Assembly: GCA_016938615.1 (NCBI GenBank)
Contig: JAFGUH010000264.1
Coordinates: 1-38,193 of the forward strand
DNA from: Halothiobacillaceae bacterium
Lineage (GTDB): Bacteria; Pseudomonadota; Gammaproteobacteria; Halothiobacillales; Halothiobacillaceae
Length of the DNA: 38,193 nucleotides
Direction: 5' to 3'
Below are positions 3,440-37,657 of the stretch, one piece after another (positions within the stretch are counted from its first letter, which is position 1; every line of letters begins with the position of its first letter). The notes beneath the pieces were generated by a model, which saw nothing but the letters and a program-made list of their open reading frames with translations, was not told the origin of the DNA and did not search any database. The translations under genes were made by a program, and so were the position numbers.

Positions 3440-3441
3440 GA

Positions 3442-6263: not shown

Positions 6264-6334
6264 GCTGCAAGTCCTTTCCAAGGTGTCTGCGGTTACCCGC
6301 CGGGCCAACGGAGCGGCGGCGACATTGACCGGAC

Positions 6335-19262: not shown

Positions 19263-19266
19263 GCCG

Positions 19267-19948: not shown

Positions 19949-20725
19949 TCATGCCACGGACCCTCGCTGGCTCATGCGCTCTCGGATCAATCGGGGCAGT
20001 CGCCGGAGGAAACCCGCCAGCAGCCGCAGGTGCATCCAGATCAGTAGGCGGTTGTCGCGCCCGTAGCGAAAGTGCGAGACACCGTCGTCCTCGGGATCGA
20101 AGTACCGTACCGGCGCCTCGAGATTGATTGCGCGAACCCCCCGCCACGCCAGGCGCACCGCCGCCTCGGGGTCGAAGTCGAAGCGTCGCATCCAGCGCGT
20201 ATCGCCCATGACGGCGACGAGATCGTCGATCGGGTAGACCCGCATGCCGAACAGCGAGTCCCCGATACCGGCCCAGAGCGTTTCCAGCTGGGCCCAGAAA
20301 TTCGAGATCTTGCGCCCTTGCACCCTCAGTGTCGGGGCATCGTCGGCGAACACCGGGCGACCCAGGATCATCGCCTCGGGGTGCGCGTTCGCAGTAGCGA
20401 TGAAGTCGGCCACTCGCGAGACGGGATGCTGGCCATCGGCATCCAGGGTGAGTGCGTGCGTGAAATGGTCGCTCTGTGCCGCGAGCAGACCGGTGAAGAC
20501 GGCGGCGCCCTTGCCACGATTGGTTTCGTGGTGGAGGACCTTTACGGCGGGGATGCGGCTGGCGAGATCGGTAAGACGACGGCGGGTCGGCCCGTCACTG
20601 CCGTCATCGACGATCCAGACGGGCATGCCGCATTCGGCCGCCTCGGTGACGGTCGTCTCGATCCGGGCCCCGGGATTGAAGCAGGGGATGAGGATCAGCG
20701 GGACGAAGCCTCGGTTCGCGTTCAT
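19949..20725 (-). CDS. Family 2 glycosyltransferase, pigment cluster
   Basis: A 258-residue GT-A-fold glycosyltransferase. It has the N-terminal nucleotide-binding segment LILIPCFNPGARIETTV, VDDGSDGPT (about 39-47), NRGKGAAVFTGL (69-80) and the metal-binding DADGQH (95-100). It lacks the long C-terminal membrane region of dolichyl-type enzymes; the end is basic (LRLLAGFLRRLPRLIRERM) and may sit on the membrane. Last gene of the left minus-strand block, joined to the acyltransferase by an ATGA overlap. Aryl-polyene clusters commonly contain such an enzyme, and it probably adds a sugar during formation of the polyene lipid. Donor and acceptor are unknown. Confidence 0.9.
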   Translation of the reverse strand: MNANRGFVPLILIPCFNPGARIETTVTEAAECGMPVWIVDDGSDGPTRRRLTDLASRIPAVKVLHHETNRGKGAAVFTGLLAAQSDHFTHALTLDADGQHPVSRVADFIATANAHPEAMILGRPVFADDAPTLRVQGRKISNFWAQLETLWAGIGDSLFGMRVYPIDDLVAVMGDTRWMRRFDFDPEAAVRLAWRGVRAINLEAPVRYFDPEDDGVSHFRYGRDNRLLIWMHLRLLAGFLRRLPRLIRERMSQRGSVA

Positions 20726-21498
20726 GCAACCTCAAGGGCCAGGCGGTAGACATCTTGCCAGGCCTGGGCCTGTCGACGTGGGTGGCCGTCGGAGGGGGGA
20801 TGATCCGGCAATCGTTGGACGCTCAATAGAACCGGGACCCTGGGTGGTCGCCAGACGGGCGCCCCCTTGGCGAGTAGCGGCGAATCGTAGCGAAACAGGT
20901 AGGGGTGGATCGGAGCCTCGCTGCGCTGGGCGAGCATGAAAGCCGCCGGTTCGAAGGCGTCCACCCGGCCGCCCTGCGGTTCCCGGGTTCGCGAACTTTC
21001 AGGGAACAGCAGCACGTGGCAGCCCGAGCGGATGGCAGCGCGTCCCCCGAGCATCATTTCCACCGGGTTGTCGTTGGGGAGATAGCCTGCCAGACGCGCT
21101 GGCAGAGCCAGCAACGGGTTGCGCATCAGGCCGGCCCGCATCACGCAGACCACGTTCGGACAATGGGCGAGCACCACCAGGGCGTCCAGCAGCGAGGGAT
21201 GATTCGCGATCACCACGCCGGGGGTGGCCCGGCGCAGGTGGTCGAGCTCGCCGGTGTCGAAGCGGCAGCCACCGATACCGATCAGCCAGCCGCGGTAGAG
21301 CCGCATGCCGAGATGGATGGCGTGCCTTGCCGCTGCTGGCCGTCGTTTGCTGGGCAGCATTGCCAGGACGGCCGCGAGTGGAAGCCATGCCAGCAGCAGG
21401 ATGCCCAGCCCGCCGAACCCCAGGAGCAGGCCGGGCAGGCCCAGCAGCCGGCGCCAGGCGGGCTGCATCGGGCGATTGGCGGTCACAGTGGCACCCAT
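20722..21498 (-). CDS. PlsC-like lysophospholipid acyltransferase family protein, pigment cluster
   Basis: A 258-residue membrane acyltransferase with an N-terminal hydrophobic region (about 21-49), the catalytic HX4D motif in VVIANHPSLLDAL (His100, Asp105) and the substrate-binding FPESSRTREP (in place of FPEGTRS). A Pro-rich tail follows. It belongs to the PlsC/LPLAT superfamily. In a polyene cluster it likely esterifies the polyene or a fatty acyl chain onto a glycerol or sugar carrier. The start overlaps the chorismatase stop by 16 bases; a later Met (21468) is possible. Together with the LpxL-like gene at 32463 this gives two acyltransferases of different families in one cluster. Confidence 0.88.
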   Translation of the reverse strand: MGATVTANRPMQPAWRRLLGLPGLLLGFGGLGILLLAWLPLAAVLAMLPSKRRPAAARHAIHLGMRLYRGWLIGIGGCRFDTGELDHLRRATPGVVIANHPSLLDALVVLAHCPNVVCVMRAGLMRNPLLALPARLAGYLPNDNPVEMMLGGRAAIRSGCHVLLFPESSRTREPQGGRVDAFEPAAFMLAQRSEAPIHPYLFRYDSPLLAKGAPVWRPPRVPVLLSVQRLPDHPPSDGHPRRQAQAWQDVYRLALEVA

Positions 21499-22532
21499 GG
21501 CCCGTCATCCCGGATGGTCGGCTCGTCGCCTTCCCACGGTTGGCCGTCACGCGGTTGGCGAAGCGTCGCCTCGATTTCCACCAAGAGCTCGGACCGGCAG
21601 ATGTCCGCCTGGAGAAACAGTATCGCCACCGGCGCCTCAAGCCCGATAGCCAGGCGATCGCGCACGGCTTCCAGGTCGCCCGGGTCGCGCAGATAGACAC
21701 GCAACACTGTCCGGCGGTCGAATGCGAATGGCCGGGCGCGCCTGGGTTGACGAGTGTTGGCGGTGTCGAGGACCGCGACAAGGTTGGCGAGCGTTTCGTC
21801 CGTCTGTCCCCGGACGTCCCCGGGGTGCTGGCTGGCGTGCCCGACGATCGAGGCGGTGCCGGAGATGAACAACCAGTCGTGCACCACACCGTGGCCCATC
21901 GCGGCGCGGGCGAAAATGGGACTTTGCGGGCCGTAGTCAGAGGGGTAGTGGTAGGCACTGATCTGACGCGGATTCTCGATCGCAAGGCAAGGCGAGGCGG
22001 CGGCGAGGAAGATCAGCCTGCCTCGCTCCCCTGGCTGGCAGCCGAGGGCGCACGCTGCCGGCGAGCGGGTAGTCACCTCGTGCCCGGCCGAGTCGAAGGC
22101 CGCGGCCCGCCCCTGGTTGAACAGTCGATAGCGTTCCAGCCCCGTGCGTGGATCGATGGCGTTGATCCCCGGCAGATACTGCCAGACCCGCCACAGCTGC
22201 GGCGACGGCGAAGGATCGAGTGTCTCGAACAGCCGGCGATAGGCCGCCTCGGTGCCCGCCGCCAGGCCGTTGCCCTCGTCCAGCTCGATCACGCCGAAGC
22301 TGAAATCCGTGCTGCGTGCGAGGCATAGCCCGGCCTCTTGCCGGGTCTCGACGGTGGGTTCGACCCCAAATGCTTCGATGTCGGCTGCCCGATCCCCGCC
22401 TAGCCGCGTCAATGGAATAATGCCGAGGCAACCGGCGTGACGCCGCGTCTGTTGATCGGGCAGGCCGAGTGCGCCGAGGGGTGCGACGCGGTTGTCTCGT
22501 CGAGGGGCCCGGGTTGGGTCGGTGGAGGCCAT
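21483..22532 (-). CDS. XanB2-like chorismatase (hydroxybenzoate synthase)
   Basis: Likely converts chorismate to 3-hydroxybenzoate and/or 4-hydroxybenzoate, the aryl starter unit of xanthomonadin-type pigments. The 349-residue product is close to the length of Xanthomonas XanB2 and related chorismatases. Recognisable parts are LWRVWQYLPGINA, LERYRLFNQGRAAAF, FISGTASIVGHASQHPGD and the C-terminal CRSELLVEIEATL, where the family's catalytic Glu is expected. The C-terminal half has the RidA-like trimer fold. The start is taken as ATG 22532, eight bases after the halogenase stop; an ATG at 22592 would overlap that gene. The order of products (3- versus 4-hydroxybenzoate) cannot be decided from sequence. 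It competes for chorismate with the tryptophan pathway. Confidence 0.87.
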   Translation of the reverse strand: MASTDPTRAPRRDNRVAPLGALGLPDQQTRRHAGCLGIIPLTRLGGDRAADIEAFGVEPTVETRQEAGLCLARSTDFSFGVIELDEGNGLAAGTEAAYRRLFETLDPSPSPQLWRVWQYLPGINAIDPRTGLERYRLFNQGRAAAFDSAGHEVTTRSPAACALGCQPGERGRLIFLAAASPCLAIENPRQISAYHYPSDYGPQSPIFARAAMGHGVVHDWLFISGTASIVGHASQHPGDVRGQTDETLANLVAVLDTANTRQPRRARPFAFDRRTVLRVYLRDPGDLEAVRDRLAIGLEAPVAILFLQADICRSELLVEIEATLRQPRDGQPWEGDEPTIRDDGPWVPL

Positions 22533-22539
22533 CGATCGG

Positions 22540-23967
22540 TCAGGAGTCCGGGTTGACCGGCTGGACCTTGCGCCGGTGCGCCCGCCAGTCACGCAGGGAA
22601 TGGCGCAGCCGGCTCAGCGAGCTGAAGTAATAGATCATCTTGAGCGTGGCGATCGAGCGCCAGATCGGTGTGCCGCGATAGATGTCGGCGGCCAGCAGCG
22701 AGATCAGCGCTTCCTTGACCCGGAAGATGTTGCGGGGCCCCATGAACAGGTCGCGCATGACCGGCTTGGTGATTCGGTAGATGAACCAGGAGAACGCCCT
22801 CGGCCCGTGGCGCACCTGGCGGTCGTAGGTTTTCAGGGCCTGTTTCGCCCGGGCAGGGTCACGCAGGGCCGTGTCGATGGCCTCGGCTCCGAAGGCGCCG
22901 CTTTGCATGGCCAGCATGACGCCGCTGGAGAACACCGGGTCGATGAACATGAAGGCGTCACCGACCAGCAGAAACCGATCCCCGTGGGTGCGGTCGGCCG
23001 CGTAGGAGAAGTTGCCGGTGGCCTGTACCTCCCGCACCAGCGAGGCCTCGGCGAGGCGTTGCCTCAAGTCCGGCACGGTCTCGATGTTGTCGAACAGGAA
23101 CTGCTCCAGCGATCGCCCGCCGCGCGTTTTCATGTGGTAGGGCCAGGTGACCATGCCGACGCTGGTAACACCGTTCTTGAGCGGAATGAACCAGAACCAG
23201 CCGTGGTCGAACCAGAACAGCGTGATGTTGCCTTCTTCCTTGCCTGGATTGCGCTTGGCATCGCGGAAATGGCCGAACACCGCCGCGCTGTTGTGCTTGC
23301 GGCTGCGACGCTTCCAGCCATGCCGGTTGGCGAGGAAGGTGTCGCGCCCGGTGGCATCGGCGACAAAGGCACTGTGCCATTCCCGTCGTGTGCCGTCCTC
23401 GGTTTCCGTGGTCACGGTCACGTGATACTCGTTGCCCTGGTCGTCGTGGCGGGGCGAGTCGTGGAAATCGATGTCGACGACCTTCGTGCCCTCGACGGTG
23501 CGAGCCCCAAGACGTGCCGCGTTGCGGAACAGTATCCGGTCGAACTCGGCACGTTCGACCTCGTAGGCCTTGGGCATGGATTTATCCCAGGCCTCGCCGA
23601 AGTGGTAGGGCTGAACATGGTCATGGACCGGCGAAACGAATTCGGCACCCCACTTGTCGATCCCGATCTCGGCGATTTCGTCGGCGACCCCGAGAGTTTC
23701 GAACAGGTCGAGGTTCCCGGGCAGCAGTGACTCGCCGATATGAAAGCGGGGATGGTGTGCCTTTTCAGCGAGCACCACGGCATGGCCCTTGCGCGCGAGC
23801 AGCGAGGCCAGTGTCGACCCGCCTGGTCCGCCGCCGACGACGAACACGTCGCAGTAGTTGCCCGCGTCCGCAGCGACATCGTTCGGTCTGGGCGGATGGG
23901 TGTTCAGGGTCGTGTTCCTGTCGTCGTCGCGCAGGTTGCTGGGATCGGTATGGGGGCGTCCGGCCAT
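22540..23967 (-). CDS. FAD-dependent halogenase-like oxidoreductase, pigment cluster
   Basis: A 475-residue flavoprotein of the tryptophan-halogenase superfamily. It has the FAD dinucleotide motif GGGPGG (45-50), GESLLP (78-83), the halogenase hallmark WxWxIP as WFWFIP (257-262), and DPVFSSGV (343-350), a form typical of enzymes acting on phenols or pyrroles. Lys105 (DKWGAEF) is a candidate for the catalytic lysine that forms chloramine or bromamine. The start ATG 23967 has GAAGGAAAA upstream; an ATG at 24018 lacks this. Xanthomonas pigment loci carry a related gene (xanB1) and xanthomonadins are brominated, so aryl halogenation is a reasonable inference. A reductase-only or monooxygenase role is not excluded. 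It heads the left minus-strand block. Confidence 0.88.
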   Translation of the reverse strand: MAGRPHTDPSNLRDDDRNTTLNTHPPRPNDVAADAGNYCDVFVVGGGPGGSTLASLLARKGHAVVLAEKAHHPRFHIGESLLPGNLDLFETLGVADEIAEIGIDKWGAEFVSPVHDHVQPYHFGEAWDKSMPKAYEVERAEFDRILFRNAARLGARTVEGTKVVDIDFHDSPRHDDQGNEYHVTVTTETEDGTRREWHSAFVADATGRDTFLANRHGWKRRSRKHNSAAVFGHFRDAKRNPGKEEGNITLFWFDHGWFWFIPLKNGVTSVGMVTWPYHMKTRGGRSLEQFLFDNIETVPDLRQRLAEASLVREVQATGNFSYAADRTHGDRFLLVGDAFMFIDPVFSSGVMLAMQSGAFGAEAIDTALRDPARAKQALKTYDRQVRHGPRAFSWFIYRITKPVMRDLFMGPRNIFRVKEALISLLAADIYRGTPIWRSIATLKMIYYFSSLSRLRHSLRDWRAHRRKVQPVNPDS

Positions 23968-24488
23968 CGGTTTTCCTTCGCTGAAGTCACTATCATTGCG
24001 CGCGGCCGCTGGGCGCACGCGCTGTCGAGGGCGGTATGATCGGTGTCCGGCCCCGGTGCGTCAACCGGCCCGAAGGCGGGTTACGGGAATGGTCGAAGAG
24101 CTCGCCCCGGCGGTCGGAGCGTCGTGGAGGGGGCGATCCGGTGGCTTAGGGGCTTGGCCCGGACCACATCATTCCTCGTATCGTCACGTTGGCCATTGAT
24201 TCCGACCGGTCGCGATGGCCGGGTTCCGGGAAGGCGGCACGTTGCCATCATGAGTCGACGGCGATAGCGGCCGGACAAGGTGCCTGGGGCGCCTGACGGC
24301 ATGCGCCTCGCGGGAATATGTCCCGGGGGTGGGTCGCGGAGCACCTCGCGGGCCGTCGGGTTCGGATGCCACCGCTTGGCGCAGGCTCGCGCGCGACCAC
24401 CGTATTGAATGTGGCCGGGGGGCATGCGATAGTCCCGCGCACTTCGCCGGCCAACGTCAGTGGGAAAATCAGGTTGTGATCGGTACTA
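23968..24488. other. Intergenic region between divergent pigment operons
   Basis: About 520 bases separate the halogenase gene from MITE-like copy 2. I see no gene with family resemblance on either strand; open frames here are short and uncharacteristic. It must hold the promoter of the left minus-strand block and perhaps that of the plus block, but I cannot point to convincing -35/-10 pairs in this GC-rich stretch. Confidence 0.5.
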
Positions 24489-24676: not shown

Positions 24677-25400
24677 TAAACAACGAAACGTGGTGGCAAG
24701 GGCTCCCGCTTCCCGGGTGCGGGCGGTGGCGCGGCGGCTGGCTTGTTGCTGGCTCATCAAGGCCCTGGGCACGACCGGGGTAATGGGCCTGTTCTTCGTC
24801 GCCTATTTCCGCCTGCTCGATCGCCCGGGTGTGCACGCCATCCTGATGCCGGAGACCGCGGTGGACCGGTGGGTGAGCTTTCAGCCGGCATTCGTCTACC
24901 TGTACGCCTCGCTTTGGTTGTACGTCTCGCTTGTGCCGGCTCTCATGCCGGATCGCCGCAGCCTGGTGCGCTATGGGATCGCGATCGGCCTGGTCTGCGT
25001 GGCCGGGCTGGCCGTGTTCTACGGCTTTCCCACCCGCATCGAGCGCGACCCGGGGCTTTGGGCGAACCAGCCTCAGTTCGCCTGGCTGAGCGCGGTCGAC
25101 GGCAGTGGCAACGCATTCCCCTCGCTCCATGTCGCCAGTGCCGTGTTCAGTGCCTACTGGCTCGATCGAATCCAGCGGGCCTTGGCCATGCCGATGGGAA
25201 TGCGCCTGTTGTCGGTCGCGTGGGCCGTGGGCATCGTTTACTCGACCTTGGCAATCGCCCAGCACGTCGCCTGGGATGTCGTGGGCGGCGTCGTGTTGGC
25301 GCTGGTCGGCGTGCTGGCGAGTGCCGGCTGGGTCGGGCGCGAAGCGCCGAGGGACGGGCTCGACGCCCAACCGTCCCGGCCCGGCGGGATTGGGCCGTGA
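24663..25400 (+). CDS. PAP2-family membrane phosphatase, pigment cluster
   Basis: A membrane protein of about 245 residues related to phosphatidic-acid phosphatase type 2. Conserved are FPSLHVASAVF (the PSxHxxS motif) and STLAIAQHVAWDVVGG (the S...H...D motif with the nucleophilic His). I do not see a clear first KxxxxxxRP motif. Several membrane helices are evident: about 33-51, 76-95, 107-125, and two near 185-220. The start is uncertain. ATG 24663 lies inside the terminal repeat of MITE-like copy 2, and no start between it and the conserved region is clearly better; an open frame extends up to 24621. It ends in GTGA, overlapping the ketosynthase start. A role in removing phosphate from a lipid or polyprenyl carrier used with the polyene is an inference. 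Confidence 0.8.
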   Translation: MQSFPKQRNVVARAPASRVRAVARRLACCWLIKALGTTGVMGLFFVAYFRLLDRPGVHAILMPETAVDRWVSFQPAFVYLYASLWLYVSLVPALMPDRRSLVRYGIAIGLVCVAGLAVFYGFPTRIERDPGLWANQPQFAWLSAVDGSGNAFPSLHVASAVFSAYWLDRIQRALAMPMGMRLLSVAWAVGIVYSTLAIAQHVAWDVVGGVVLALVGVLASAGWVGREAPRDGLDAQPSRPGGIGP

Positions 25401-26611
25401 ACTCGCGAGCGCCCCTGCCGCGTCTGCGCATTCGCCACTACACCGCGACCAATGCCGCGGGTACCGGGAATGCGGCCCTGCTCCAGGCGTTGCGCCGCCG
25501 AGATGGCGGTCTGGCGCCCTGCGACTTTCTCGATATCGATCTCGACACATACGTCGGACGGGTCGGCGGCCTCGAGGAGATGTCTTGGCCGACAGACTGG
25601 TCGGCCTGGGACTGCCGCAATAACCGGCTTGCCTGGCTGGGGCTCGAGCAGGACGGCTTCCTCGATGCGGTCTCGGCTGCGGTCGGCCGGCACGGCCCCG
25701 CGCGCGTCGGGGTCGTGCTGGGAACCAGTACCTCGGGCATCCTGCACACCGAGCTGGCCTTCCGCGAGCGAGACTCCATGAGCGGCGCGCTGCCCAGTCC
25801 ACTGTATTACGGCACGACCCACGAGTTGTCCTCCGCGCCTCGGTTCGTCCGCGAGCGACTGGGTCTGGCCGGTCCGACGTACACCGTCTCGACTGCCTGT
25901 TCGTCCAGCGGCAAGGTGTTCGCCAGCGCGCAGCGGCTGATCGCCAGCGGGCTGTGTGACGCCGTGATTGTCGGCGGGGTGGATTCGCTCTGCCTGACCA
26001 CGATGTACGGTTTCGCCTCGCTCGAGCTCACCGCGCCCGGCCCCTGTCGCCCGGGCGATGTCGATCGTCACGGCATATCGATCGGGGAGGCGGCCGGTTT
26101 CGCGCTGGTCGAGGCGGATGCGGACGACGCCGACGACCTGTGCCTTTTTGGCGTCGGCGAAAGCGTCGACGCCCATCACATGTCCACTCCGCACCCCGAA
26201 GGCGCGGGTGCCGAGCGCGCAATGCACCGCGCCCTGGCGAACGCCCGGATGGATGCGAGGCAGGTCGACTACGTCAACCTGCACGGCACGGCCAGCCGCG
26301 TGAACGACGCCGCGGAGGACCACGCGCTCGAGTCAGTCTTCGGGGCGGGGCAGATGTGCTCGTCGACCAAGGGGTGGACCGGTCACACTCTGGGCGCCGC
26401 GGGCATCACGGAAATGGTGATCGGGGCGCTTGCGATCGAGGATGGCTTCGTTCCCGGCACATTGAACACCCGTCGTGTCGATCCGGCTTTCCGTGCCGAC
26501 TACCGACTGGAGAACGGCGAGACGGGCCCGACGGTAGTGCTGTCCAACTCGTTCGGTTTCGGCGGCAACAACTGCAGCCTCCTGTTCGGCCGCAAGGAGG
26601 GCGTCGCGTGA
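25397..26611 (+). CDS. Beta-ketoacyl-ACP synthase (ketosynthase), pigment cluster
   Basis: A 404-residue thiolase-fold condensing enzyme with the full Cys-His-His set: Cys168 in VSTACSSSG, His296 in NLHGTAS and His330 in STKGWTGHTLGAAG. The C-terminal NSFGFGGNNCSLLFG is normal. The start is GTG 25397, overlapping the PAP2 stop by 4 bases; the frame is open far upstream, but that part lies within the phosphatase gene. Directly followed by the chain-length-factor gene, it should form the heterodimeric ketosynthase/CLF pair of type II aryl-polyene synthases, extending the acyl chain with malonyl-ACP. An ApeO-type role is inferred from this pairing. Confidence 0.95.
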   Translation: MNSRAPLPRLRIRHYTATNAAGTGNAALLQALRRRDGGLAPCDFLDIDLDTYVGRVGGLEEMSWPTDWSAWDCRNNRLAWLGLEQDGFLDAVSAAVGRHGPARVGVVLGTSTSGILHTELAFRERDSMSGALPSPLYYGTTHELSSAPRFVRERLGLAGPTYTVSTACSSSGKVFASAQRLIASGLCDAVIVGGVDSLCLTTMYGFASLELTAPGPCRPGDVDRHGISIGEAAGFALVEADADDADDLCLFGVGESVDAHHMSTPHPEGAGAERAMHRALANARMDARQVDYVNLHGTASRVNDAAEDHALESVFGAGQMCSSTKGWTGHTLGAAGITEMVIGALAIEDGFVPGTLNTRRVDPAFRADYRLENGETGPTVVLSNSFGFGGNNCSLLFGRKEGVA

Positions 26612-28163: not shown

Positions 28164-28170
28164 GATCTCG

Positions 28171-28905: not shown

Positions 28906-28922
28906 CCTCGGTCGGTATCGGC

Positions 28923-29462: not shown

Positions 29463-31855
29463 GGCGAACTCTCCCGGCCGGGGGGCATTGCGCCGGATGG
29501 GGGTGACGACCCGCGGGATGACGGGTCGCGAGCAAAGGTTGCGGCAAGCAGGAAAGCCGCCAGCGCGCCCGGCGCGACCACCGCGCCGATTGCCTGCAGG
29601 ATCGGGACAGCGGAGAGCGAAAGCACGCCGAAGGCGCTTACCGTGGTCGCGGTGGCGAGGGTCAGCGAGGCGAGCGTGCGCGCGTCCATCGGCTCGTCAC
29701 GCCCCCCTGGCTGGAAGAACAGCGCGTAATTGGAACCCACCGCCACGGTGAGCAACAGGCCGATCAGATGCAGCAGGGTCAGACCGCCGCCGACCAGACG
29801 ATGCCCGGCCAGCACGAGCAGGATCGCGATCGCGATCGGCAACAGGGTGCGCAACGTGCGTCGCGGCGAACGCTGAACGGCGAACAGGAGCAGCACGATG
29901 GCCCCCGCGCCGATCAAGGCGACCGTGAGCGTGGTCTGGAGGTAATGGCGGTACAGCCGGTTGGACTCGCCCAGCATGTCGACCAGGGTGGCCGAGTCGA
30001 CGGGGGCGATCGCCTTGCGAACGGCCGCCGCGTCGATCGGCTGCTCCGTGTCGGTCTCCTTCAGCGTGACCATCGCCAACTGGCCTTCGCGCGGGTCCGA
30101 CGGCAACTGGCCGGCGACAGCGAGCCACAAGGGGGTGCCCCGCAACGTTTCCAGATCGATCGGATCGGCGGCGCGTTGTCGTTCGACGTCCTCGACGAAT
30201 CCGTCGAGTCGGTCTGTCGAAACCGGCAGGTCGGTCAGGGCGACCTCGAGCCGTGCCCGGAGGGTGTCGGCCGTCGGCAGGGCGGCCTGGCGAGCACGCT
30301 GGGTGGCGGTGGAGGGGAGCAGGTCCGTCGGCGTGTGAAAGCCCGCCACGATCCCGTTCTCGACCAGTCGATCGAGGATGGGCGTCAGCCGTTCGGTGCG
30401 TTGCAAGGCCGTTTCCCGGTCCGCCCCCTTGACCACGATCAGGTAGCGAGGGCTCGCCGACCCCAAGTCCTCGCGCAGGCGGGTCTCGGCGGCCTCCAGT
30501 GCGGGATCGATAGGGACCAGACCCGAAAGCGTCCCGCGCCAGAGGCCATCATGACCCGCCACGACGATCAGCAATGCCACCGCACCGGCCAGCAAGGCGG
30601 GAACCCGCAATCGGCGCAGGCCGTGCAGCACCGGGGCGAGGCGTTCGCCGAAGCCGGCGATGTCGCCCCGCGGCAGACGGCTGCCCACCAGCGGCAGGAT
30701 GTATCGCGTGACCAGCGCGGCCGTGACCAGGCCGGTCATGGCGTAGGTCCCGATCTGCATCAGGCCCGGAAAGCCGGAGAACAGCAGGGCGGCGAAGCCG
30801 ATCAGGGAGGTCATCAGCCCCAGGCGAATCGTCGGCCAGTAGTGACGCACCCAATGTCGCTGGACGACGTCCGCCTGATCGAGCTGACGCGACTGGACGA
30901 AGAAGTAGATGCTGTAGTCGATCGCCTCGCCCATCAACGCGGTGCCAAACCCGATGGTGATGCCGTGAACCTGGTCGAAGCCCAGCGAGACGGCCGCAAT
31001 CCCGATGACCACACCGCTGGCGACCGGCAACAGGCCGGCGAGCAATACGCGGATGCTGCGGTAGGCGGCCAGGAGCACCAAGGTCACCAGCAGCAGGCTC
31101 GCGGCCGAAAAGCCGGTGACCTCGCTTCGAATGGTGTCGCGGGCGGCAATGGCGAAGGCCGGCGAGCCGGCCACGGTCAGTCGCAGGGTCTGCCCAAGCT
31201 CGGTTTTGATGTCCTCAAATGTGGCGTGGATGCGATCGTTCGCGCGTGCCAAAGCGTCGGTGTCCGCACCGCTTGCTGCCGCCTGGGCGATCAGCAGGGT
31301 GCGTTCGCCGTTTGTGGAGGCCCATACGCCGCAGCATCGTGACGGTCCGTCGTCATCGTCGAGCAGTTGAAGCATCTCGCCGGTCGGGTCTCGCGGGAAC
31401 AGGTCGGCCATCATGTCGCCCCAGGGCGAGTTGAGACGCTGTATCGATGCCCCGATCGCCGTGGTCAGACCCTCGCGGCTGAAATGCGCGGTATCGACGG
31501 CTGGGCTCAGCAGGTAGCGGTGGGCGAACAGGTGCTGCCGGGCGCGTTCGAGGTCCTCGCTTCCACCGTTCTGTACCGTCGCGAACCCCGGCTCGTCGCG
31601 AAGACGCATCTTCAACGCCTCGCTCGCCGCCGCTCGTCCGTCGGCGGTGCCGCCCTCGATGCCGATCAGGAAGGTGCGCGAGATGCCGCCTTGCTGGAGT
31701 TGCTCGACCAACAGCCGTTGTGCCTCGGTCGGTGTCGCCGGCAGGAAAGCCGACATGTCGGCGGTGAACCGGGTCTGGCCAATGATCGCGACCGCAAGAG
31801 CCAGGGTTCCGATCCAGAGTGCCAGCGCCAGGAAGGAACGGCGGCGCGGGCTCAT
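29459..31855 (-). CDS. MMPL/RND-superfamily exporter, pigment cluster
   Basis: A 798-residue inner-membrane protein of the MMPL-type RND exporters, like XanK of xanthomonadin loci. After helix 1 (about 8-26) comes a periplasmic domain (about 28-235). It is followed by a first group of helices (about 238-390, including VHGITIGFGTALMGEAIDYSIYFF with the family's conserved acidic and Tyr residues), a helix near 418-435, a second periplasmic domain and a second group of helices (about 640-795). It likely moves the finished polyene lipid, or a precursor, from the inner membrane toward the LolA-like carrier encoded next to it. The start overlaps the carrier stop by 4 bases (ATGA). Confidence 0.92.
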   Translation of the reverse strand: MSPRRRSFLALALWIGTLALAVAIIGQTRFTADMSAFLPATPTEAQRLLVEQLQQGGISRTFLIGIEGGTADGRAAASEALKMRLRDEPGFATVQNGGSEDLERARQHLFAHRYLLSPAVDTAHFSREGLTTAIGASIQRLNSPWGDMMADLFPRDPTGEMLQLLDDDDGPSRCCGVWASTNGERTLLIAQAAASGADTDALARANDRIHATFEDIKTELGQTLRLTVAGSPAFAIAARDTIRSEVTGFSAASLLLVTLVLLAAYRSIRVLLAGLLPVASGVVIGIAAVSLGFDQVHGITIGFGTALMGEAIDYSIYFFVQSRQLDQADVVQRHWVRHYWPTIRLGLMTSLIGFAALLFSGFPGLMQIGTYAMTGLVTAALVTRYILPLVGSRLPRGDIAGFGERLAPVLHGLRRLRVPALLAGAVALLIVVAGHDGLWRGTLSGLVPIDPALEAAETRLREDLGSASPRYLIVVKGADRETALQRTERLTPILDRLVENGIVAGFHTPTDLLPSTATQRARQAALPTADTLRARLEVALTDLPVSTDRLDGFVEDVERQRAADPIDLETLRGTPLWLAVAGQLPSDPREGQLAMVTLKETDTEQPIDAAAVRKAIAPVDSATLVDMLGESNRLYRHYLQTTLTVALIGAGAIVLLLFAVQRSPRRTLRTLLPIAIAILLVLAGHRLVGGGLTLLHLIGLLLTVAVGSNYALFFQPGGRDEPMDARTLASLTLATATTVSAFGVLSLSAVPILQAIGAVVAPGALAAFLLAATFARDPSSRGSSPPSGAMPPGRESSP

Positions 31856-32463
31856 GGCGTGTCGGTGGGGTGAGAGATGCGCATCACGTTTGCGTTGCCG
31901 TTGTCACGCTCGATCGTGAGTCGATCCACCAGGGCGACATCATCCACGAGCCGACCGCGGACCGTGATGCGGTCGAGGTGCGCGGCGAGGGGATCGCTGC
32001 GTGGGACGAGTTCGAGCCCCCATTCCTGCTCGCCGAACGATCGGAAGGTCATTTCGTAGTCCGCTCCCAGGCGTTCGATCTGGCCGTTGAGTACCGCCCG
32101 CAAGCTGGTCGCCACGGCGGCAAGTTCGGGCGACTCGGCCAGGTTTAAGCGCCGGGTGCGGCCGTCCGCCTGAAGTATCAGCTCGTCGCCATCGAGTGTG
32201 AGGGTCTGCCGTGTAGGCGCGATCTGTTCCTGGACCAAGTGATCCGGCGGACGGTAGCTAAGGTGACCGCGTGACTCGAGGGGGGCGTCCAGCATGTCGA
32301 GGTATCGCGTCTGCTGGTATTCAGCGTGGGAGGGACCCCGCGCGGCGAGCGCTTGTGCAAGTCTCTCGATGGACAGTTCCTGCGCCGCCTCGGCCAGCGG
32401 CGAGAACAGGAGGCTTGCCAGGGCACAAGCGAGCAGGGGAAAGGGCAGGGCGAGGTATCGCAT
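31852..32463 (-). CDS. LolA-like periplasmic carrier, pigment cluster
   Basis: A 203-residue secreted protein with a signal peptide (core PLLACALASLLFSPL, cleavage likely after AEA at residue 26) and a LolA/LolB-like beta-barrel domain (SHAEYQQTRYLDMLDAPLESRG, LSYRPPDHLVQEQI, GDELILQADGRTRRLNL). Proteins of this kind are standard in aryl-polyene clusters and probably carry the hydrophobic polyene lipid across the periplasm, receiving it from the MMPL exporter. There is no lipobox, so it is soluble rather than a lipoprotein. The gene overlaps the upstream acyltransferase stop by one base. Confidence 0.88.
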   Translation of the reverse strand: MRYLALPFPLLACALASLLFSPLAEAAQELSIERLAQALAARGPSHAEYQQTRYLDMLDAPLESRGHLSYRPPDHLVQEQIAPTRQTLTLDGDELILQADGRTRRLNLAESPELAAVATSLRAVLNGQIERLGADYEMTFRSFGEQEWGLELVPRSDPLAAHLDRITVRGRLVDDVALVDRLTIERDNGNANVMRISHPTDTP

Positions 32464-33407
32464 CAGCTGTTCTCGCGGTCGGAATGGGAATCGCGCGGCG
32501 ATCCCTTGGCCCAGAAGTCGAAGAAATTGAACCAGTTGTCGGGGTGTTCTCGAACCAGGATCTCGAGTCGCTCGACATAATGGTCCATCGCCTCGGCGAT
32601 TGCGCGGCGACGATCCGATCTGGTTACGCCGCGAAAGTCGGCGATTGGTTCGAAAAGCACCCGGTAACGGTTCCCGCCAAGATAGATGCCGGCCATGAAC
32701 AGCACTCGTTGGCGAAGCAGGGCAGCCATGCGAAACGGTCCCTCGGCAAAGGTCGCCGGGTGGCCGAGAAAATCGCGTTCGGTCATCGGATCACTGGCGA
32801 GGCTGCGGTCGGCGAGCATTCCGACGAGATGACCCCGATGGAGTCGTCGATCGGCCTCGATCATGGAGTCAATCCGACCCAGCTCGATGATGTCGGCGGC
32901 GCGTTGCGGGTTGATCGCATCAAGAACGCGCTGGATGTTCCGCGCATTTTCCGGGTACATCATCATGGTGATGGGTAACTGTCGTTCCGACCAGCCGGCT
33001 GCCCGGAGGGCATCGAAACTGCCGATATGCGCGCCGACCAGGATGGCGGGCTCCGGGGGCTCGAAATGCTCGCGTCCCTCGACCTCGACATCGAAGGCAT
33101 TGACGCGGTCATTCAGGAGGTAGACGCGATCGTGGATGGTGCTCGCGAAGTGGTGGATGTGCCAGAACGCCTCGCCCAGGCCCGCACGTCGACCGCGGAC
33201 CCGTTCGAAAAAAGCGCGGCTCGAGCGGCGTGCCTCGGGCACGAAGCACAGGAAATAGAGGCTAATCGGCAGTAACAGCGGGCGCGTGAGGCGCCGGCCC
33301 AGTCGGAGCGACAGGAACGCCATCAACCGCATGAGCCAAGCGTGTCCACGCTCCCCGCGTGCCTGCCAACGGGCGTCTGCGCGTTGGGTGCCCGGTTGCT
33401 CGGTCAT
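32463..33407 (-). CDS. LpxL/HtrB-like acyltransferase, pigment cluster
   Basis: A 314-residue protein of the lipid A acyltransferase superfamily. It has an N-terminal membrane-anchoring region (LMAFLSLRLGRRLTRPLLLPISLYFL), the catalytic HX4D motif in VGAHIGSFDAL (His127, Asp132), and GMLADRSL and FAEGPFRMAALLRQRVLFM in the later part. In aryl-polyene loci such enzymes are thought to transfer the polyene acyl group from carrier protein to a lipid or sugar acceptor. The start ATG 33407 overlaps the dehydratase stop by 4 bases and has GGGAG upstream; the ATG at 33437 is less likely. Confidence 0.9.
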   Translation of the reverse strand: MTEQPGTQRADARWQARGERGHAWLMRLMAFLSLRLGRRLTRPLLLPISLYFLCFVPEARRSSRAFFERVRGRRAGLGEAFWHIHHFASTIHDRVYLLNDRVNAFDVEVEGREHFEPPEPAILVGAHIGSFDALRAAGWSERQLPITMMMYPENARNIQRVLDAINPQRAADIIELGRIDSMIEADRRLHRGHLVGMLADRSLASDPMTERDFLGHPATFAEGPFRMAALLRQRVLFMAGIYLGGNRYRVLFEPIADFRGVTRSDRRRAIAEAMDHYVERLEILVREHPDNWFNFFDFWAKGSPRDSHSDRENS

Positions 33408-33763
33408 GATTCGTCTCCCGGCATCGCCGACGTGCATGATGCCGCATCGATGAGCAGTTCCATCACGATGCGCGGTTCGTGGCCGTCCGCGTGAGAAACC
33501 GTCAACCGGGTCCGACCCCGTGGCGCAGTCTCGGAGGTCAGGACGAGCGGGACCCCCGGGCGGGCCGGCGAGGGAAACTTTGCTTGCCGGATTGCACCAG
33601 GAGCGGCCGGCGACCCCAACTGGGTCTGAAACGAGGTCACGGCCCAGTCGACCATCAGGGCGCCGGGGAGCAACGGGTCCCCGGGAAAGTGACCGGCAAA
33701 CACCGGGTCCGCGGCGTCCGGTGTCCAGTGGGCCAGTATCCGTCGCGTCTCCGAAAGCGTCAT
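33404..33763 (-). CDS. ApeI-like hot-dog 3-hydroxyacyl-ACP dehydratase, pigment cluster
   Basis: A 119-residue single hot-dog protein with the FabZ/FabA-like motif AGHFPGDPLLPG (His25), close in size to ApeI. The rest is short and basic. It would dehydrate 3-hydroxyacyl-ACP intermediates. With the ApeP-like gene at 28923 the cluster has two dehydratases, as in characterised aryl-polyene systems where both are needed for full activity. Overlaps of 4 bases on each side (ATGA) show tight coupling between ligase, dehydratase and acyltransferase. Confidence 0.87.
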   Translation of the reverse strand: MTLSETRRILAHWTPDAADPVFAGHFPGDPLLPGALMVDWAVTSFQTQLGSPAAPGAIRQAKFPSPARPGVPLVLTSETAPRGRTRLTVSHADGHEPRIVMELLIDAASCTSAMPGDES

Positions 33764-35181
33764 GTCGATGGCTCCGTGCCGGGCGGCGTCGATACGTCGC
33801 CGATCAGGCGGAGCAGGCTCTCGTGCGTGACCTTGCCGGTGGCATTAACCGGCAGATGGTCGACCAGCAACAGCGGGCGAGGCAGGAACACGGGGTCCAC
33901 CTGGGCGCGCAATGCCTCGCGCAGCCGCTCGGTCGAGAGGCCGGGGGCGCATACCACCGCCGCGAGTCGTTGCGTGCCCCGGCGGTCGGCGGTTCGACCG
34001 GGGTGGAAGAACCGTCCGTCGACCACGCCGTCGATCGCGAGCAGTTTGGCGTTCAGGAATTCGATCGAACTGCGTTTACCGGCGATGTTGACCTGATTGC
34101 CCCGTCGTCCATGCAGACGAAAGTGTCCCGGGTCGATCGGCTCGATTCGGTCGGCGAGTGGCGTCGGCTCCTCAAGATGCCCCCCTTGAGCGATGGTTTT
34201 CTCGCCCGACTGGCGCAGCTCGATTCCCCGCATCAGTGACCATTGGTCGTTCTTGCAGGGCCGGCGCACGGCGATCTGTCCGGTCTCCGTCGATCCATAG
34301 ATTTCCTGTAGCACCCCGCCAAGGCGCGACTCGGCCTCCCGGGCAAGCGCCGGGTCGAGGGGCGCGGTGGCACAGAGGATGCGTTCGCAGCGAGGAAGCG
34401 TGATTTCTGCCGCCAGCAGGTGCTGCAGGTGATAGGGCGTGGTCACCAGCGCGCGGGGCGTCGGCAACCGGGCCAGGCCATCGGCAATGTCGCTGGGAAA
34501 GAACGGCTGATCGGTCGAGAGGACCGCATCGCCACACAGGGCGGCGAGTACGAGTGACTCGAATCCGTACATGTGCTGGGAGGGGACGGTTCCCAGCAGG
34601 TGGAGCGGGGGGTTATCGAGCTCCGCCTCCGCCGCCAGTGCTCGGGCCGCGTTACGGGCGTTGGCGACCAGCCGACCCCAGGTCTTGTCGTGGCCGCTGG
34701 GCGTGCCCGTGCTGCCGGAGGTGAATACCCGGGCGACGATGGCGTCCTCCCGCAATAGGGGCATCGCGGTCTTGACGTGGCGCGGTGCGCTCGCAACGGG
34801 CGAGCGGATCGCGACCCTCGGAATGGATTCGTCGATCGAAACATCGAGGGTGGCATCGCTGCCGTGGAGGATCACGGTCCGGGGGTAGCGGGCGCCGAGA
34901 TCGTTGATCGCCCCCGGCGTGTGTGTCGATGGCATCAGGTTCATCTGACCCCCGAGCATCCCCGCGAGCAGGCCCACCACGAAATCGTCACGTCGCGTGG
35001 CGAGGTTGATCAAGTAACGGGGCGTCCGAGCTCGGGCGCGGAGTCGGTCGGACAGCGCCTGGGCGCTGTCGAGCAGGTCGCCGGCCGTCCAGGCGCGGTC
35101 CGGCGACCAAAGGATGACCCGTTCTAGGTCCCCCTCGCCGAACAGTGCCAACCGACGCGGAGACTTGCCCATGCGGCTCAT
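33760..35181 (-). CDS. AMP-forming aryl:ACP ligase, pigment cluster
   Basis: An adenylate-forming enzyme of about 473 residues (XanA2/ApeH type) that activates hydroxybenzoate with ATP and loads it on an acyl carrier protein. The P-loop reads FTSGSTGTPSGHDKTW, then TVPSQHMYGFESL, YGSTETGQIAVR and, near the C-terminus, the catalytic lysine in LPVNATGKVTHESLL. Start choice: ATG 35181 overlaps the previous stop as ATGA, but ATG 35172 has an AGGGA at ideal distance, so translation may begin there. The open frame further upstream lies in the neighbouring gene. It is the natural partner of the chorismatase at 21483, even though the two lie in different blocks. Confidence 0.92.
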   Translation of the reverse strand: MSRMGKSPRRLALFGEGDLERVILWSPDRAWTAGDLLDSAQALSDRLRARARTPRYLINLATRRDDFVVGLLAGMLGGQMNLMPSTHTPGAINDLGARYPRTVILHGSDATLDVSIDESIPRVAIRSPVASAPRHVKTAMPLLREDAIVARVFTSGSTGTPSGHDKTWGRLVANARNAARALAAEAELDNPPLHLLGTVPSQHMYGFESLVLAALCGDAVLSTDQPFFPSDIADGLARLPTPRALVTTPYHLQHLLAAEITLPRCERILCATAPLDPALAREAESRLGGVLQEIYGSTETGQIAVRRPCKNDQWSLMRGIELRQSGEKTIAQGGHLEEPTPLADRIEPIDPGHFRLHGRRGNQVNIAGKRSSIEFLNAKLLAIDGVVDGRFFHPGRTADRRGTQRLAAVVCAPGLSTERLREALRAQVDPVFLPRPLLLVDHLPVNATGKVTHESLLRLIGDVSTPPGTEPST

Positions 35182-35870
35182 TCCCTGTCGCCCGTGAGCC
35201 GCAACATGTGGCGTCGGTAAGCCTGGATAGCTGCGATCGGACCGCTGCATTCCTCGCGGGGCAATACCTGCAATCGCACGAGGTATTCGACAACGAAGAG
35301 GGTCGCGACAAGAGGGAGTGTTGCGTACATGGCATAGACCGTCCACAGCGAGGGGCCGAATGCGATCATCAGACCGATCGACATCGCGCCGTTGGCTACG
35401 AAGAACAGGCCCCAAGCCCAGGTGATACGCCGGGTGTAGTGACGCAGGGAGGGAGACAGTTGGTCGTGTACCTGGGCGGCTAGGCGGGTGCAGACGGGTT
35501 CGTGGCCAGCACGCAGGCTGCCGAGAAACAGCCCGGCAAGCGCGAGGTGAACGGCAAGGTGCTGGCTGAGGTAGTACAGGGGGAGTCTGTCGCCGATCAG
35601 CATGGCGAGGACCGGCGCCACGGCCCCCGCGAGTGCGGCGAGGAGGACGGTGCGGCGGGTGTCCAGTCGCGGCGCTATCGACAGAATCACGATGCCCGCG
35701 AGCGGGAGCAGCGCGAGCAGGACCAGGGCGAACTCGGGGTCAGGTCGACCACTCAACCACTGGGCGAGGCCAAGGTTTGCCAGCATCAGGGCGCCGATCA
35801 GCCAGCGCCTGACCTTGAACCGCCCTGTTGTGGCGCTTACTTGGTGCGATGCTCGGCGATGAATCGGCAT
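35178..35870 (-). CDS. COG4648-like integral membrane protein, pigment cluster
   Basis: A 230-residue protein with about six or seven membrane helices (for example LIGALMLANLGLAQWL near the N-terminus, FALVLLALLPLAGIVILSI, and FVVEYLVRL near the C-terminus) and the motif ITWAWGLFFVANGAMS, which is shared by membrane proteins found next to the ligase in aryl-polyene clusters. The function is not known. The start overlaps the end of the first carrier-protein gene by 34 bases; there is no better ATG, GTG or TTG that keeps the first helix. Confidence 0.8.
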   Translation of the reverse strand: MPIHRRASHQVSATTGRFKVRRWLIGALMLANLGLAQWLSGRPDPEFALVLLALLPLAGIVILSIAPRLDTRRTVLLAALAGAVAPVLAMLIGDRLPLYYLSQHLAVHLALAGLFLGSLRAGHEPVCTRLAAQVHDQLSPSLRHYTRRITWAWGLFFVANGAMSIGLMIAFGPSLWTVYAMYATLPLVATLFVVEYLVRLQVLPREECSGPIAAIQAYRRHMLRLTGDRE

Positions 35871-36118
35871 AGACTGCGCAGCGAGGCAAATATCTGTTCG
35901 TTACGCTCGTCGTCCGAGCGCAGGTTCAGCCCGTAACGTTTGGAGACAACGAGCGCGATTTCCAGCACGTCGATGGAATCGAGCCCGAGTCCGTCGCCGA
36001 AAAGCGGGGCGTCCGGGTCGATCTCCGCAGGGGATTCGTCGAGGTTGAGCGCGTCGACGAGGTGCGCGGCCACTTCCGGTATAAGGGCGTCGGTCTTGGT
36101 GTCGATGGTGTCTGTCAT
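35837..36118 (-). CDS. Acyl carrier protein 1, pigment cluster
   Basis: A 93-residue acidic carrier protein. The phosphopantetheine attachment site is Ser48 in GLGLDSIDVLEIA. It carries the starter aryl group or the growing polyene between ligase, ketosynthase and tailoring enzymes. It differs from the second carrier protein (37421) in length and in the residues after the Ser, so the two probably have different partners, as do ApeE/ApeF and the two carrier proteins of Xanthomonas. It begins 44 bases after the ketosynthase stop, the largest gap inside this block, without a clear Shine-Dalgarno. Confidence 0.92.
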   Translation of the reverse strand: MTDTIDTKTDALIPEVAAHLVDALNLDESPAEIDPDAPLFGDGLGLDSIDVLEIALVVSKRYGLNLRSDDERNEQIFASLRSLCRFIAEHRTK

Positions 36119-36162
36119 GAGTATGGGTCGTTGGTGGATGCGAAACCATGGGCTATGCGGTA

Positions 36163-37428
36163 TCAGTCGTCGTCCGCCCTGGAGAATGCCAGAACCGCGT
36201 TGCTGCCGCCGAAGGCGAACGAATTCGATAGGGCCGCTACTATACCGGGAACCTCGCGCGCCCGGTCTCTAATGTGATCGACGCCCGCGCAGGCAGGGTC
36301 GATCACGTCCAGGTGGGCCGTCGGCGGCAACGACCGTCGTTGCAAGGCCATCACGGTGATCGCCGCTTCGATTGCGCCGGTGGCGCCCATTGCATGCCCG
36401 TGGGCTGCCTTGGTGGCACTGACCGGCAACCGGGCGGCTCTTTGTGTACCGAAGACGCTGCGCAGTGCATCGATCTCGATCGCGTCTCCTTCGGTGGTCG
36501 CGGTGCCGTGAGCGTTCACGTAGCCGATCGCGTCGTGTGGCAACCTCGCGTCGGCCAAGGCCTTCTCGATGGCGCGGACCTGCCCGTGTTTCTGCGGCCG
36601 AACCACGTGGTTCGCATCGTTAGACGCCCCGAATCCGCAGAGTTCGGCGAGAATGGGGGCGCCGCGCGATCGGGCCCGATCCATCGATTCCAGCACCAGG
36701 CACGCCGCACCCTCCGCGAGTACGAGGCCCCGACGCTCTGGGTGGAACGGCCGACAAGCGAGGTGCGCGTTCTCGTCGTCGCCGGGGGCGAGCATGTGCA
36801 TGGCATCCCAGGCACGCAAAACGCCCAGGGCCAATGGCAGGTCCGAGCCGCCGGCGAGCATCAGGTCCATGTGCCCGTCCCGGATGCGCTCGTAGGCGTC
36901 GCCGATCGCGATCGCGGCCGAGGCGCAGGCGACGCTGTGGGTCACGGCCTGTCCGCCAAGGCCGTAGCGGATACCGAGCTGGGCAGAGGCGGCATTGTTC
37001 ATGCCCATCACCACGGACATCGGTGAAAGACGTTGCCGCCCCTCTTTCCAGAAAGCGCGGTAGCCGTTCTCGAAGGTGTTTATGCCGCCCAGTCCAGTTC
37101 CCCAGTTGACACCCGCACGGGGGTCAACGCTGGTTGGCGCGGGAAGGGCAGCGTGGGCCCAGGCCTCGTCGGCGGCGAGCAGGGCGAGTCGCGCGAACGG
37201 ATCGGTGGCGCGGCACAGCGCCTTGCCGAGTCGCGCCTCGAAATCGATCGGATCGAAAAAGACCGCCGGGGTGCGGCCACCGAGGCCGGCATCGCCATAG
37301 TCGAAGGGGCGTACGCTCGACTGACCGGCGAGCAAGCGGTCCATCAACGCGTTGGTGTCGCCGCCGAACGGGTCGAGTATCGACAGTCCGGTTACCGCCA
37401 CACGCGTGCGACTGCGCGGGTCACGCAT
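36163..37428 (-). CDS. Beta-ketoacyl-ACP synthase (FabF-like), pigment cluster
   Basis: A 421-residue condensing enzyme with Cys168 in HSVACASAAIAIG, the His of VNAHGTATTEGD and the Lys/His of ATKAAHGHAMGATGA; it ends NSFAFGGSNAVLAF. It is a complete FabF-type ketosynthase and is distinct from the ketosynthase/CLF pair on the plus strand. It may act alone, like ApeR, for the first or a specific extension step. The start overlaps the second carrier-protein gene by 8 bases, pointing to a functional pair. Confidence 0.95.
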   Translation of the reverse strand: MRDPRSRTRVAVTGLSILDPFGGDTNALMDRLLAGQSSVRPFDYGDAGLGGRTPAVFFDPIDFEARLGKALCRATDPFARLALLAADEAWAHAALPAPTSVDPRAGVNWGTGLGGINTFENGYRAFWKEGRQRLSPMSVVMGMNNAASAQLGIRYGLGGQAVTHSVACASAAIAIGDAYERIRDGHMDLMLAGGSDLPLALGVLRAWDAMHMLAPGDDENAHLACRPFHPERRGLVLAEGAACLVLESMDRARSRGAPILAELCGFGASNDANHVVRPQKHGQVRAIEKALADARLPHDAIGYVNAHGTATTEGDAIEIDALRSVFGTQRAARLPVSATKAAHGHAMGATGAIEAAITVMALQRRSLPPTAHLDVIDPACAGVDHIRDRAREVPGIVAALSNSFAFGGSNAVLAFSRADDD

Positions 37429-37657
37429 CGTCGGGAAGATGCCCGCGAAGGATATCGATCAAATCTTGTACCGTTTCTGGCGTGCCAACGTCATTGCCAA
37501 GCTCGATGTTCATTCTTTCCTCGAGCGAAAAGATCAATTCCAGCAAGGTGAACGAGTCGATGCCAAGCTCGTCCAGCCGACGCTCTGGCGTGACCGAGGC
37601 CGGGTCGATGTCGGTATTTTCGGCGATGCCCGTCCGGATGATCTCGAGTGCCTGCAT
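37421..37657 (-). CDS. Acyl carrier protein 2, first gene of the right pigment block
   Basis: A 78-residue carrier protein of normal size, with phosphopantetheine site Ser35 in DELGIDSFTLLELIF and the acidic helix II/III expected for the family. The ATG at 37657 has a strong Shine-Dalgarno, AGGAAGGA. It is the promoter-proximal gene of a nine-gene minus-strand block (37657 to 28923) in which nearly every junction overlaps. MITE-like copy 3 ends 39 bases upstream of the start codon, so the block's promoter lies in or beyond that element. Confidence 0.94.
   Translation of the reverse strand: MQALEIIRTGIAENTDIDPASVTPERRLDELGIDSFTLLELIFSLEERMNIELGNDVGTPETVQDLIDILRGHLPDDA

Follow-up and report, generated by a model that had tools for sequence, protein, structure and literature searches.

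The clusters closest to the one described here are those of Azoarcus sp. BH72 (the arc genes), Lysobacter enzymogenes and E. coli (the aryl-polyene, or APE, cluster). According to the available part of the Azoarcus report (PMC3949708), ArcB makes 3- and 4-hydroxybenzoic acid (HBA) in vitro and ArcT acts on 3-HBA; arcN (azo0254) is annotated in Table 1 as a polysaccharide deacetylase, and the arc genes are accompanied by dar genes, including those for a ketosynthase (KS; darJ) and an acyl carrier protein (ACP; darC). In L. enzymogenes, mutants in the KS, ACP, ketoreductase (KR) and ORF16 genes are pigmentless (PMC3691225, available part). Here we analyze a 38,193-nt contig (C157, GenBank JAFGUH010000264.1; hereafter, the window) from a Halothiobacillaceae genome (2.40 Mb, 94.7% complete) that lies in or near Guyparkeria, a genus of sulfur oxidizers. 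A set of 19 genes at positions 19949-37657 is very probably a xanthomonadin/arcuflavin-type aryl-polyene pigment cluster of this Guyparkeria-like sulfur oxidizer, with a product that is predicted from sequence. We favor this assignment because 18 of the 19 genes match known families and most have counterparts in Azoarcus arc, and because the likely catalytic residues are kept, the gene order is conserved, and the ketosynthase KSa of the family forms a clade.

Gene content and layout

The genes were delineated by Pfam and NCBIfam scans and by reading of the frames, and fall into three blocks, listed below by coordinate; block 3 is transcribed from ACP2 to the ApeP-like dehydratase (DH), that is, from the bottom of its list to the top. 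The counts of aligned sequences include that of the window.

Block 1
19949..20725, minus: GT2 glycosyltransferase, arcE-like (PF00535, 3.7e-19)
20722..21498, minus: PlsC-type acyltransferase, arcD-like (PF01553, 1.2e-10)
21483..22592, minus: chorismatase of the FkbO/Hyg5/XanB2 type (PF21168, 6.2e-28; PDB 4bps, FkbO, 7.2e-45, and also 5ag3/5a3k; TIGR04444, 210 bits, under its cut-off of 325)
22540..24018, minus: flavin-dependent halogenase, GTG start uncertain (PF04820, 3.5e-21; PDB halogenases 8zop, 3e1t, 7fco, 5dbj (PltA) and 5buk); among 38 aligned sequences, W274, W276, I278 and P279 invariant and K122 in at least 90%

Block 2
24717..25400, plus: PAP2 phosphatase/phosphotransferase (PF01569, 1.9e-10, on 24621-25400), stop overlapping the KS start; start uncertain, GTG 24690 or 24717, TTG 24621 falling within a repeat element; P167, S168, H170, H215 and D219 (numbered from 24621) invariant in 39 sequences
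25397..26611, plus: ketosynthase KSa, ORF17/arcK/ApeO-like (NF006618, 516 bits, over cut-off; PDB 7f28_B, 3e-70, and 6qsp_A, 1.1e-66); CSSS motif present; C168, H296 and H330 invariant across 14 family sequences
26608..27423, plus: chain-length-factor-like protein, ORF16/arcJ/ApeC-like (PF13723, 1.8e-31, on 26656-27423; also under Ketoacyl-synt_2; PDB 7f28_A, 2.2e-9, and 6qsp_B, 1.1e-6)
27420..28163, plus: KR, FabG-like (PF13561, 4.5e-57; FabG model NF004200, over cut-off); Y158 and K162 kept in 79 sequences
28171..28905, plus: NodB-type polysaccharide deacetylase (PF01522, 6.3e-9); D19, H97 and H101 invariant in 14 sequences

Block 3
28923..29462, minus: ApeP-like dehydratase (DH1), last gene of the block (profile of 18 homologs against PDB 6qsr_B, 1.1e-12); H24 and E69 invariant in 79 sequences
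29459..31855, minus: MMPL exporter (PF03176, 3.6e-15)
31852..32463, minus: LolA-like carrier, LolA_3 (PF19574, 3.6e-19; flexirubin LolA2 model NF053544, 50 bits, under cut-off)
32463..33437, minus: LpxL-type acyltransferase (PF03279, 2e-13)
33404..33763, minus: ApeI-like dehydratase (DH2; PF22818, 1e-6, barely over cut-off); H25 kept in 65 sequences
33760..35181, minus: AMP-forming aryl:ACP ligase, arcT/ApeH-like (PF00501, 8.3e-17; best NCBIfam model 4-coumarate--CoA ligase, under cut-off)
35178..35870, minus: membrane protein in the position of E. coli ApeG (COG4648) and arcU, between ACP and ligase (49 sequences aligned)
35837..36118, minus: acyl carrier protein 1 (ACP1; PF00550, 3e-8; NF006617, 127 bits, over cut-off); S48 kept in 61 sequences
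36163..37428, minus: second ketosynthase KSb, FabF-like (PF00109, 1.8e-40; PDB 1j3n, 2.3e-80); C168, H307 and H343 kept in 9 sequences
37421..37657, minus: acyl carrier protein 2 (ACP2), first gene of the block, 78 amino acids, DSFT motif (best NCBIfam ACP model 5e-10, all under cut-off); S35 kept in 10 sequences

Flank
38114..38193, minus: tRNA gene cut by the contig end (RF00005; ARAGORN found none in the window)

The conserved residues named above are the catalytic ones of their families, and these likely catalytic positions are conserved across alignments of 9 to 79 homologs; all 19 frames are free of internal stops. The best PDB matches of KSa and its partner are the two chains of the same entries, 7f28 and 6qsp, which we take to be ApeO/ApeC. 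The locus thus holds the parts expected of an aryl-polyene type II polyketide synthase (PKS), namely, an ApeO-like KS with an ApeC-like partner, ApeI-like and ApeP-like DHs, KR, ACP, ligase, LolA-like carrier, MMPL-type exporter, acyltransferase, and glycosyltransferase. It also carries two marks of the xanthomonadin/arc subtype, a flavin halogenase and a chorismatase assigned to the XanB2 type, the latter scoring under its NCBIfam cut-off and with XanB2 itself outside the comparison. DH1 alone gave no Pfam or NCBIfam match, and its identity comes from the homolog profile and from PF22817 (ApeP-like), which 8 of the 18 homologs match. The sole gene of the 19 without a family is that for the membrane protein at 35178-35870, for which the scans returned a weak IspA match (0.003).

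A preliminary description made from the DNA letters had proposed an aryl-polyene cluster of the xanthomonadin type, equipped with genes for starter synthesis, extension, attachment, and export. Every activity that it listed is encoded at 19949-37657, as judged by the domain scans, the PDB profile match, and frame reading, and the gene that it overlooked is the one for the membrane protein. It had also spoken of three divergent blocks, which holds for blocks 1 and 2, separated by a 0.7-kb gap, but not for blocks 2 and 3, which are convergent and 17 nt apart. Within blocks, adjacent genes overlap by 1-53 nt, except for KR-NodB (7-nt gap) and ACP1-KSb (44-nt gap). Two boundaries, the start of the ligase gene (35181) and the end of ACP2 (37421), were derived by hand from the frames, and ACP2, being below the 80-amino-acid limit of the list of open reading frames (ORFs), was read separately.

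In the left half of the window, an AcrB/HlyD/OEP efflux set occupies 128-6308 and is accompanied by a housekeeping block of truA, trpF, trpB, trpA, accD, a Mur-ligase-type (folC-like) gene, SPOR, cvpA, purF, an L,D-transpeptidase gene (LDT), ilvD, and a gene for an FMN-binding protein (FMNb). The halogenase-PAP2 gap holds an inverted-repeat element at 24487-24678 that resembles a miniature inverted-repeat transposable element (MITE), with ends like GGGAAACTCTGCAC; a 104-base part of it (24575-24678) matches the genome at 57 places, a count that includes the part itself and many incomplete copies, and partial matches occur in the equivalent gap of 3 of 6 same-genus loci. Another inverted pair of this kind lies at 6550-6577/6779-6806. 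Promoter and terminator scans did not rise above shuffles (2 vs. 1.8 and 5 vs. 9.4), and PADLOC had no match for the three proteins checked.

Distribution, relatives, and insertion site

A KSa match at 1e-60 was found in 17 of the 27 family genomes, the source genome included: 7/11 in its own genus (g1), 8/10 in g4, 1/5 in g3, and 1/1 in g2, with the g3 and g2 loci differing in layout and scoring lower. The best named matches are to 'Halothiobacillus sp.' LH_M8 (81%) and Guyparkeria sp. SCN-R1 (77%). Among the own-genus genomes lacking a KSa match, G007 and G009 retain the cluster's left end next to a contig break, G004 is only 64% complete, and G005, which is 99% complete, yielded no KSa, NodB, or chorismatase. 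Gene order is the same in all six same-genus loci fetched, as far as each stretch reaches, which argues that the gene set is more than a chance assembly. Five of these stretches end inside KSb and four of the five were followed further; ACP2 was seen in 5/6 loci, the stretch from G001 stopping before its position. In the KSa tree, the family forms one clade (16 rows, 100/99). The single KSa of g2 (genome G011, locus L126, 9.2-10.4 kb) is in two pieces, one flagged with an internal TGA, and is either a broken gene or an assembly error.

The chorismatase is present in 16 of the 27 genomes, in 14 together with KSa at 1e-60; the other two are G007, which has the contig break there, and G022 (g4), in which no KSa match at 1e-60 was found. 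The latter genome is 93% complete, and its chorismatase could be a leftover or serve another use of 3-hydroxybenzoate. Conversely, G025, G014, and G011 have KSa without chorismatase, and in G013 and G023 the chorismatase lies away from the cluster.

For comparison beyond the family, we used 80 named loci, the best 80 of at least 568 confirmed ones, which represent nearest relatives rather than a fair sample and include none from Xanthomonas. Outside the family lie 76 of them, 42 with at least 8 kb on either side of KSa; many end at contig ends, where the absence of a gene is not a real absence. The KSb profile, built from the best match per family locus, took in KS paralogs where KSb was out of reach, and KSb counts are restricted to loci that also carry ACP2. 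In the 42 longer loci, DH1 was found in 41, MMPL in 40, KR in 39, ligase in 38, GT2 in 35, deacetylase in 32, PlsC-type acyltransferase in 23, halogenase in 20, PAP2 in 19 (directly upstream of KSa in 11), chorismatase in 18, and KSb with ACP2 in one. Across all 76, the counts were 49 for deacetylase, 28 each for chorismatase and halogenase, 25 for PAP2 (adjacent to KSa in 16), and six for KSb with ACP2. Chorismatase, halogenase, PAP2, and deacetylase occur together in three outside loci (L043, L054, and L059), some others being cut short. Given these counts, neither PAP2 nor the deacetylase is foreign to such clusters; the preliminary description, which had set both genes apart from the xanthomonadin locus, was mistaken here, as arcN is itself annotated as a polysaccharide deacetylase and PAP2 stands directly 5' of KSa in the 16 outside loci. 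When 87 loci were scored for the gene before KSa, it was PAP2 in 33, a methyltransferase gene in 10, and both in none; family loci account for 17 of the 33, with some genomes counted twice. We considered mutual exclusion of the two genes and claim no such rule, as L041, L043, and L080 carry both.

Four features mark the family: its NodB belongs to a divergent subfamily, it shares KSb and ACP2 with a betaproteobacterial sister clade, the window lacks an arcM-like methyltransferase gene, and DarB was not found. All seven ORFs picked between MMPL and KSa of named loci match PF01522 (92-103 bits), and a deacetylase profile built from these seven hand-picked outside loci detected no family NodB in L021-L036 at 1e-10. 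In the other direction, the family NodB profile scored 19-35 bits on the outside loci, except for L109 (266 bits), and among 274 sampled genomes of the class its sole match at 1e-25 outside the genus was in G274. By these profile comparisons, the family NodB is a separate subfamily. In G274 (L124, 3573-10456), the family-type NodB lies near GT2, LpxL-type acyltransferase, and squalene-hopene cyclase genes, with no polyene-KS match within 20 kb; this single case hints at a possible glycolipid or hopanoid module.

The KSa tree joins the family to six betaproteobacterial-type loci, L038, L040, L042, L046, L073, and L094 (22-row set, 98/87). Their gene order differs from that of the family, but four (L038, L040, L042, and L073) carry KSb and ACP2; L094 is a 4.4-kb contig, and L046 has neither gene in 21 kb. 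Common descent of KSb and ACP2 in the family and these loci is likely. The pair also occurs in two Gallionella loci outside this set (L041 and L043). In L042 (6594-8292), two methyltransferase-like genes stand side by side after KSb and ACP2.

The cluster ends beside a tRNA. A tRNA-Ser(TGA) gene lies ~130-160 nt past ACP2 in G006, G010, G002, and G008, and the end of the window falls inside a tRNA gene (38114-38193) at the same place. In G005, the whole cluster is missing from the site between FMNb and tRNA-Ser; the order there is purF, LDT, ilvD, FMNb, a stretch of 60 nt resembling (81%) the DNA at the tRNA 3' end, and an ORF that by eye resembles a tyrosine integrase. About 13.7 kb (L141, 5088-6590, and L145, 4899-4989) separate FMNb from an intact tRNA-Ser(TGA), beyond which G005 is collinear with G006 at ~82%, and 15 nt of the tRNA end recur at both borders of the insert. 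From this order and the border repeats, we conclude that the cluster is absent from G005 as a unit and that the tRNA is a used integration site. The absence would be a loss, because the FMNb tree groups G005 with G006 and G008 (97/99); we dropped a firm call of loss, as the IlvD tree gives no clear grouping and flank and cluster genes disagree. In the window, the flank (17397-19938) has an FMNb nearest to that of G003 (83%, vs. 64-65% in G006 and G008). Within the cluster (25397-31855), KSa, NodB, and MMPL are nearest to those of G006 and G008 (81, 69-70, and 76-77%); in the other four relatives, the values are 73-77, 57-59, and 64-65%. Recombination at the left border of the cluster within the genus is possible.

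Predicted pathway and alternative explanations

Our model draws on Lysobacter genetics, Azoarcus enzymology, and E. coli APE genetics. The chorismatase would convert chorismate to 3- (and 4-) hydroxybenzoate, the AMP-forming ligase would load hydroxybenzoate onto an ACP, and KSa with its ApeC-like partner would extend it with malonyl units, KR and the ApeP-like and ApeI-like DHs forming one double bond per unit; good homology underlies all these steps. The flavin halogenase would brominate or chlorinate the carrier-bound aryl head, and halogenation of the loaded head is likely because PltA (5dbj) and ChlB4 (7fco), enzymes acting on carrier-bound substrates, are among its PDB relatives. For the anchor, we infer that GT2, NodB, PAP2, and the two acyltransferases may build an amino-sugar or glycerol lipid and join the polyene to it. 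The MMPL exporter and LolA would carry the polyene to the outer membrane, with a putative role as antioxidant or photoprotectant. KSb and ACP2 would probably serve an early condensation or a dedicated acyl supply.

Three published observations weigh against a pigment made and exported in this way. White, slightly translucent colonies on thiosulfate agar are described in the available part of a study in which Guyparkeria was the commonest genus (18 of the 41 kept isolates; PMC9144203), and, for Guyparkeria TX1 and H. diazotrophicus, the accessible text names only cytochrome c and phenylalanine Raman bands (PMC13082230), the cluster status of the strains not being established in either case. Further, the LolA-like gene of Lysobacter is dispensable for pigment (PMC3691225, available part). 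The colony and Raman reports would fit an intact cluster that this lineage expresses weakly or not at all, as would the repeat element in the gap between the divergent blocks; the stop-free frames, the kept catalytic residues, and the order conserved across the genus argue otherwise, and we regard silence as unlikely. The white colonies and the lack of a named polyene band would equally suit a product that is not a visible pigment at all but a membrane lipid, aryl or polyunsaturated, whose double bonds are too few to give color. Such a lipid strikes us as extremely improbable: the types of KSa and partner, dehydratases, and ligase are those of aryl-polyene clusters, and the chorismatase accompanies KSa in 14 of the 16 family genomes that have it.

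A polyene-dialkylresorcinol ester, a flexirubin/arcuflavin-like hybrid with KSb and ACP2 in the roles of darJ and darC, is suggested by the extra KS and ACP of the window, given that Azoarcus pairs its arc genes with just such dar genes. Against it, the 94.7% complete source genome encodes one PF08541 protein only, which we take as FabH rather than DarB because its neighbor resembles plsX by eye, with no search made for DarA. Nor did a search of the Parazoarcus and Azoarcus genomes return any KSb match at 1e-70, DarJ itself being outside the comparison, and we set aside the equation of KSb with darJ. The hybrid is, in our judgment, very unlikely.

Within the preferred reading as an aryl-polyene pigment cluster, a more specific proposal is decidedly tentative: that the product is an aryl polyene, halogenated but lacking the arcM methyl group, and is anchored to an amino-sugar glycolipid whose head is built by GT2, NodB, and PAP2; that it serves these largely dark-living chemoautotrophic sulfur oxidizers as a stress-induced membrane antioxidant and not a sunscreen; and that the genus keeps, loses, or exchanges the genes as one 17.7-kb cassette beside tRNA-Ser.

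Comparison with described clusters

By its gene content, the cluster resembles those of many other proteobacteria and is of a known kind. What it adds is the placement of a known type of pigment pathway in a family of chemolithoautotrophs, for which our search of the open-access literature, with partial coverage of Guyparkeria, turned up no published account of one. Polyenes scatter strongly near 1125 cm-1. The cluster bears on a 2026 Raman method that, in its available text, uses a band near this position and treats carotenoids as irrelevant to chemoautotrophs. Occurrence in lithotrophs is not itself new, since Sideroxydans lithotrophicus ES-1 had been named as a carrier (PMC3949708, available part). 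The recurrent deacetylase and PAP2 genes point to an unsolved step, the joining of the polyene to lipid.

With the E. coli APE cluster, the window shares two ACPs, a COG4648 protein beside the ligase, ApeI and ApeP dehydratases, a LolA-like protein, an RND-family exporter, and three KS-type proteins; the E. coli gene table, as available, has no chorismatase or halogenase, and adds methyltransferase, thioesterase, LolB-like, and lipoprotein genes (PMC8253772). The L. enzymogenes cluster has in common with the window the KS and ORF16 partner, ACP, KR, two dehydratases, acyltransferase, LolA-like carrier, exporters, and a XanB2 homolog, but no halogenase, and the accessible text contains neither 'deacetylase' nor 'phosphatase' (PMC3691225). 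Thus, being absent in Lysobacter, the halogenase is not universal in the xanthomonadin/arc subtype.

The likeness to Azoarcus sp. BH72 extends, in the available part of PMC3949708, to the halogenase, XanB2-type chorismatase, acyltransferases, glycosyltransferase, KS, N-terminal-KS partner, KR, dehydratases, polysaccharide deacetylase, exporter, LolA, ligase, and ACP. The differences are that Azoarcus has two unlinked arc loci, against one here, and that Azoarcus carries the arcM methyltransferase and dar genes. A profile of five arcM-type genes, with NodB as a positive control, hit none of the 426 window ORFs at E 1, and at 1e-10 it hit 0/17 family loci vs. 14/76 outside loci; DarB, a mark of arcuflavin/flexirubin dialkylresorcinol hybrids, was likewise not found in the 94.7% complete genome. 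PAP2, KSb, and ACP2, present in the window, are outside the arc lists of Table 1 in PMC3949708, and the NodB subfamily differs from the betaproteobacterial-type ones, arcN itself lying outside that comparison. Set against well-described families with a known product, the cluster has near kin in that of xanthomonadin and arcuflavin, to which it comes close with a gene set that differs.

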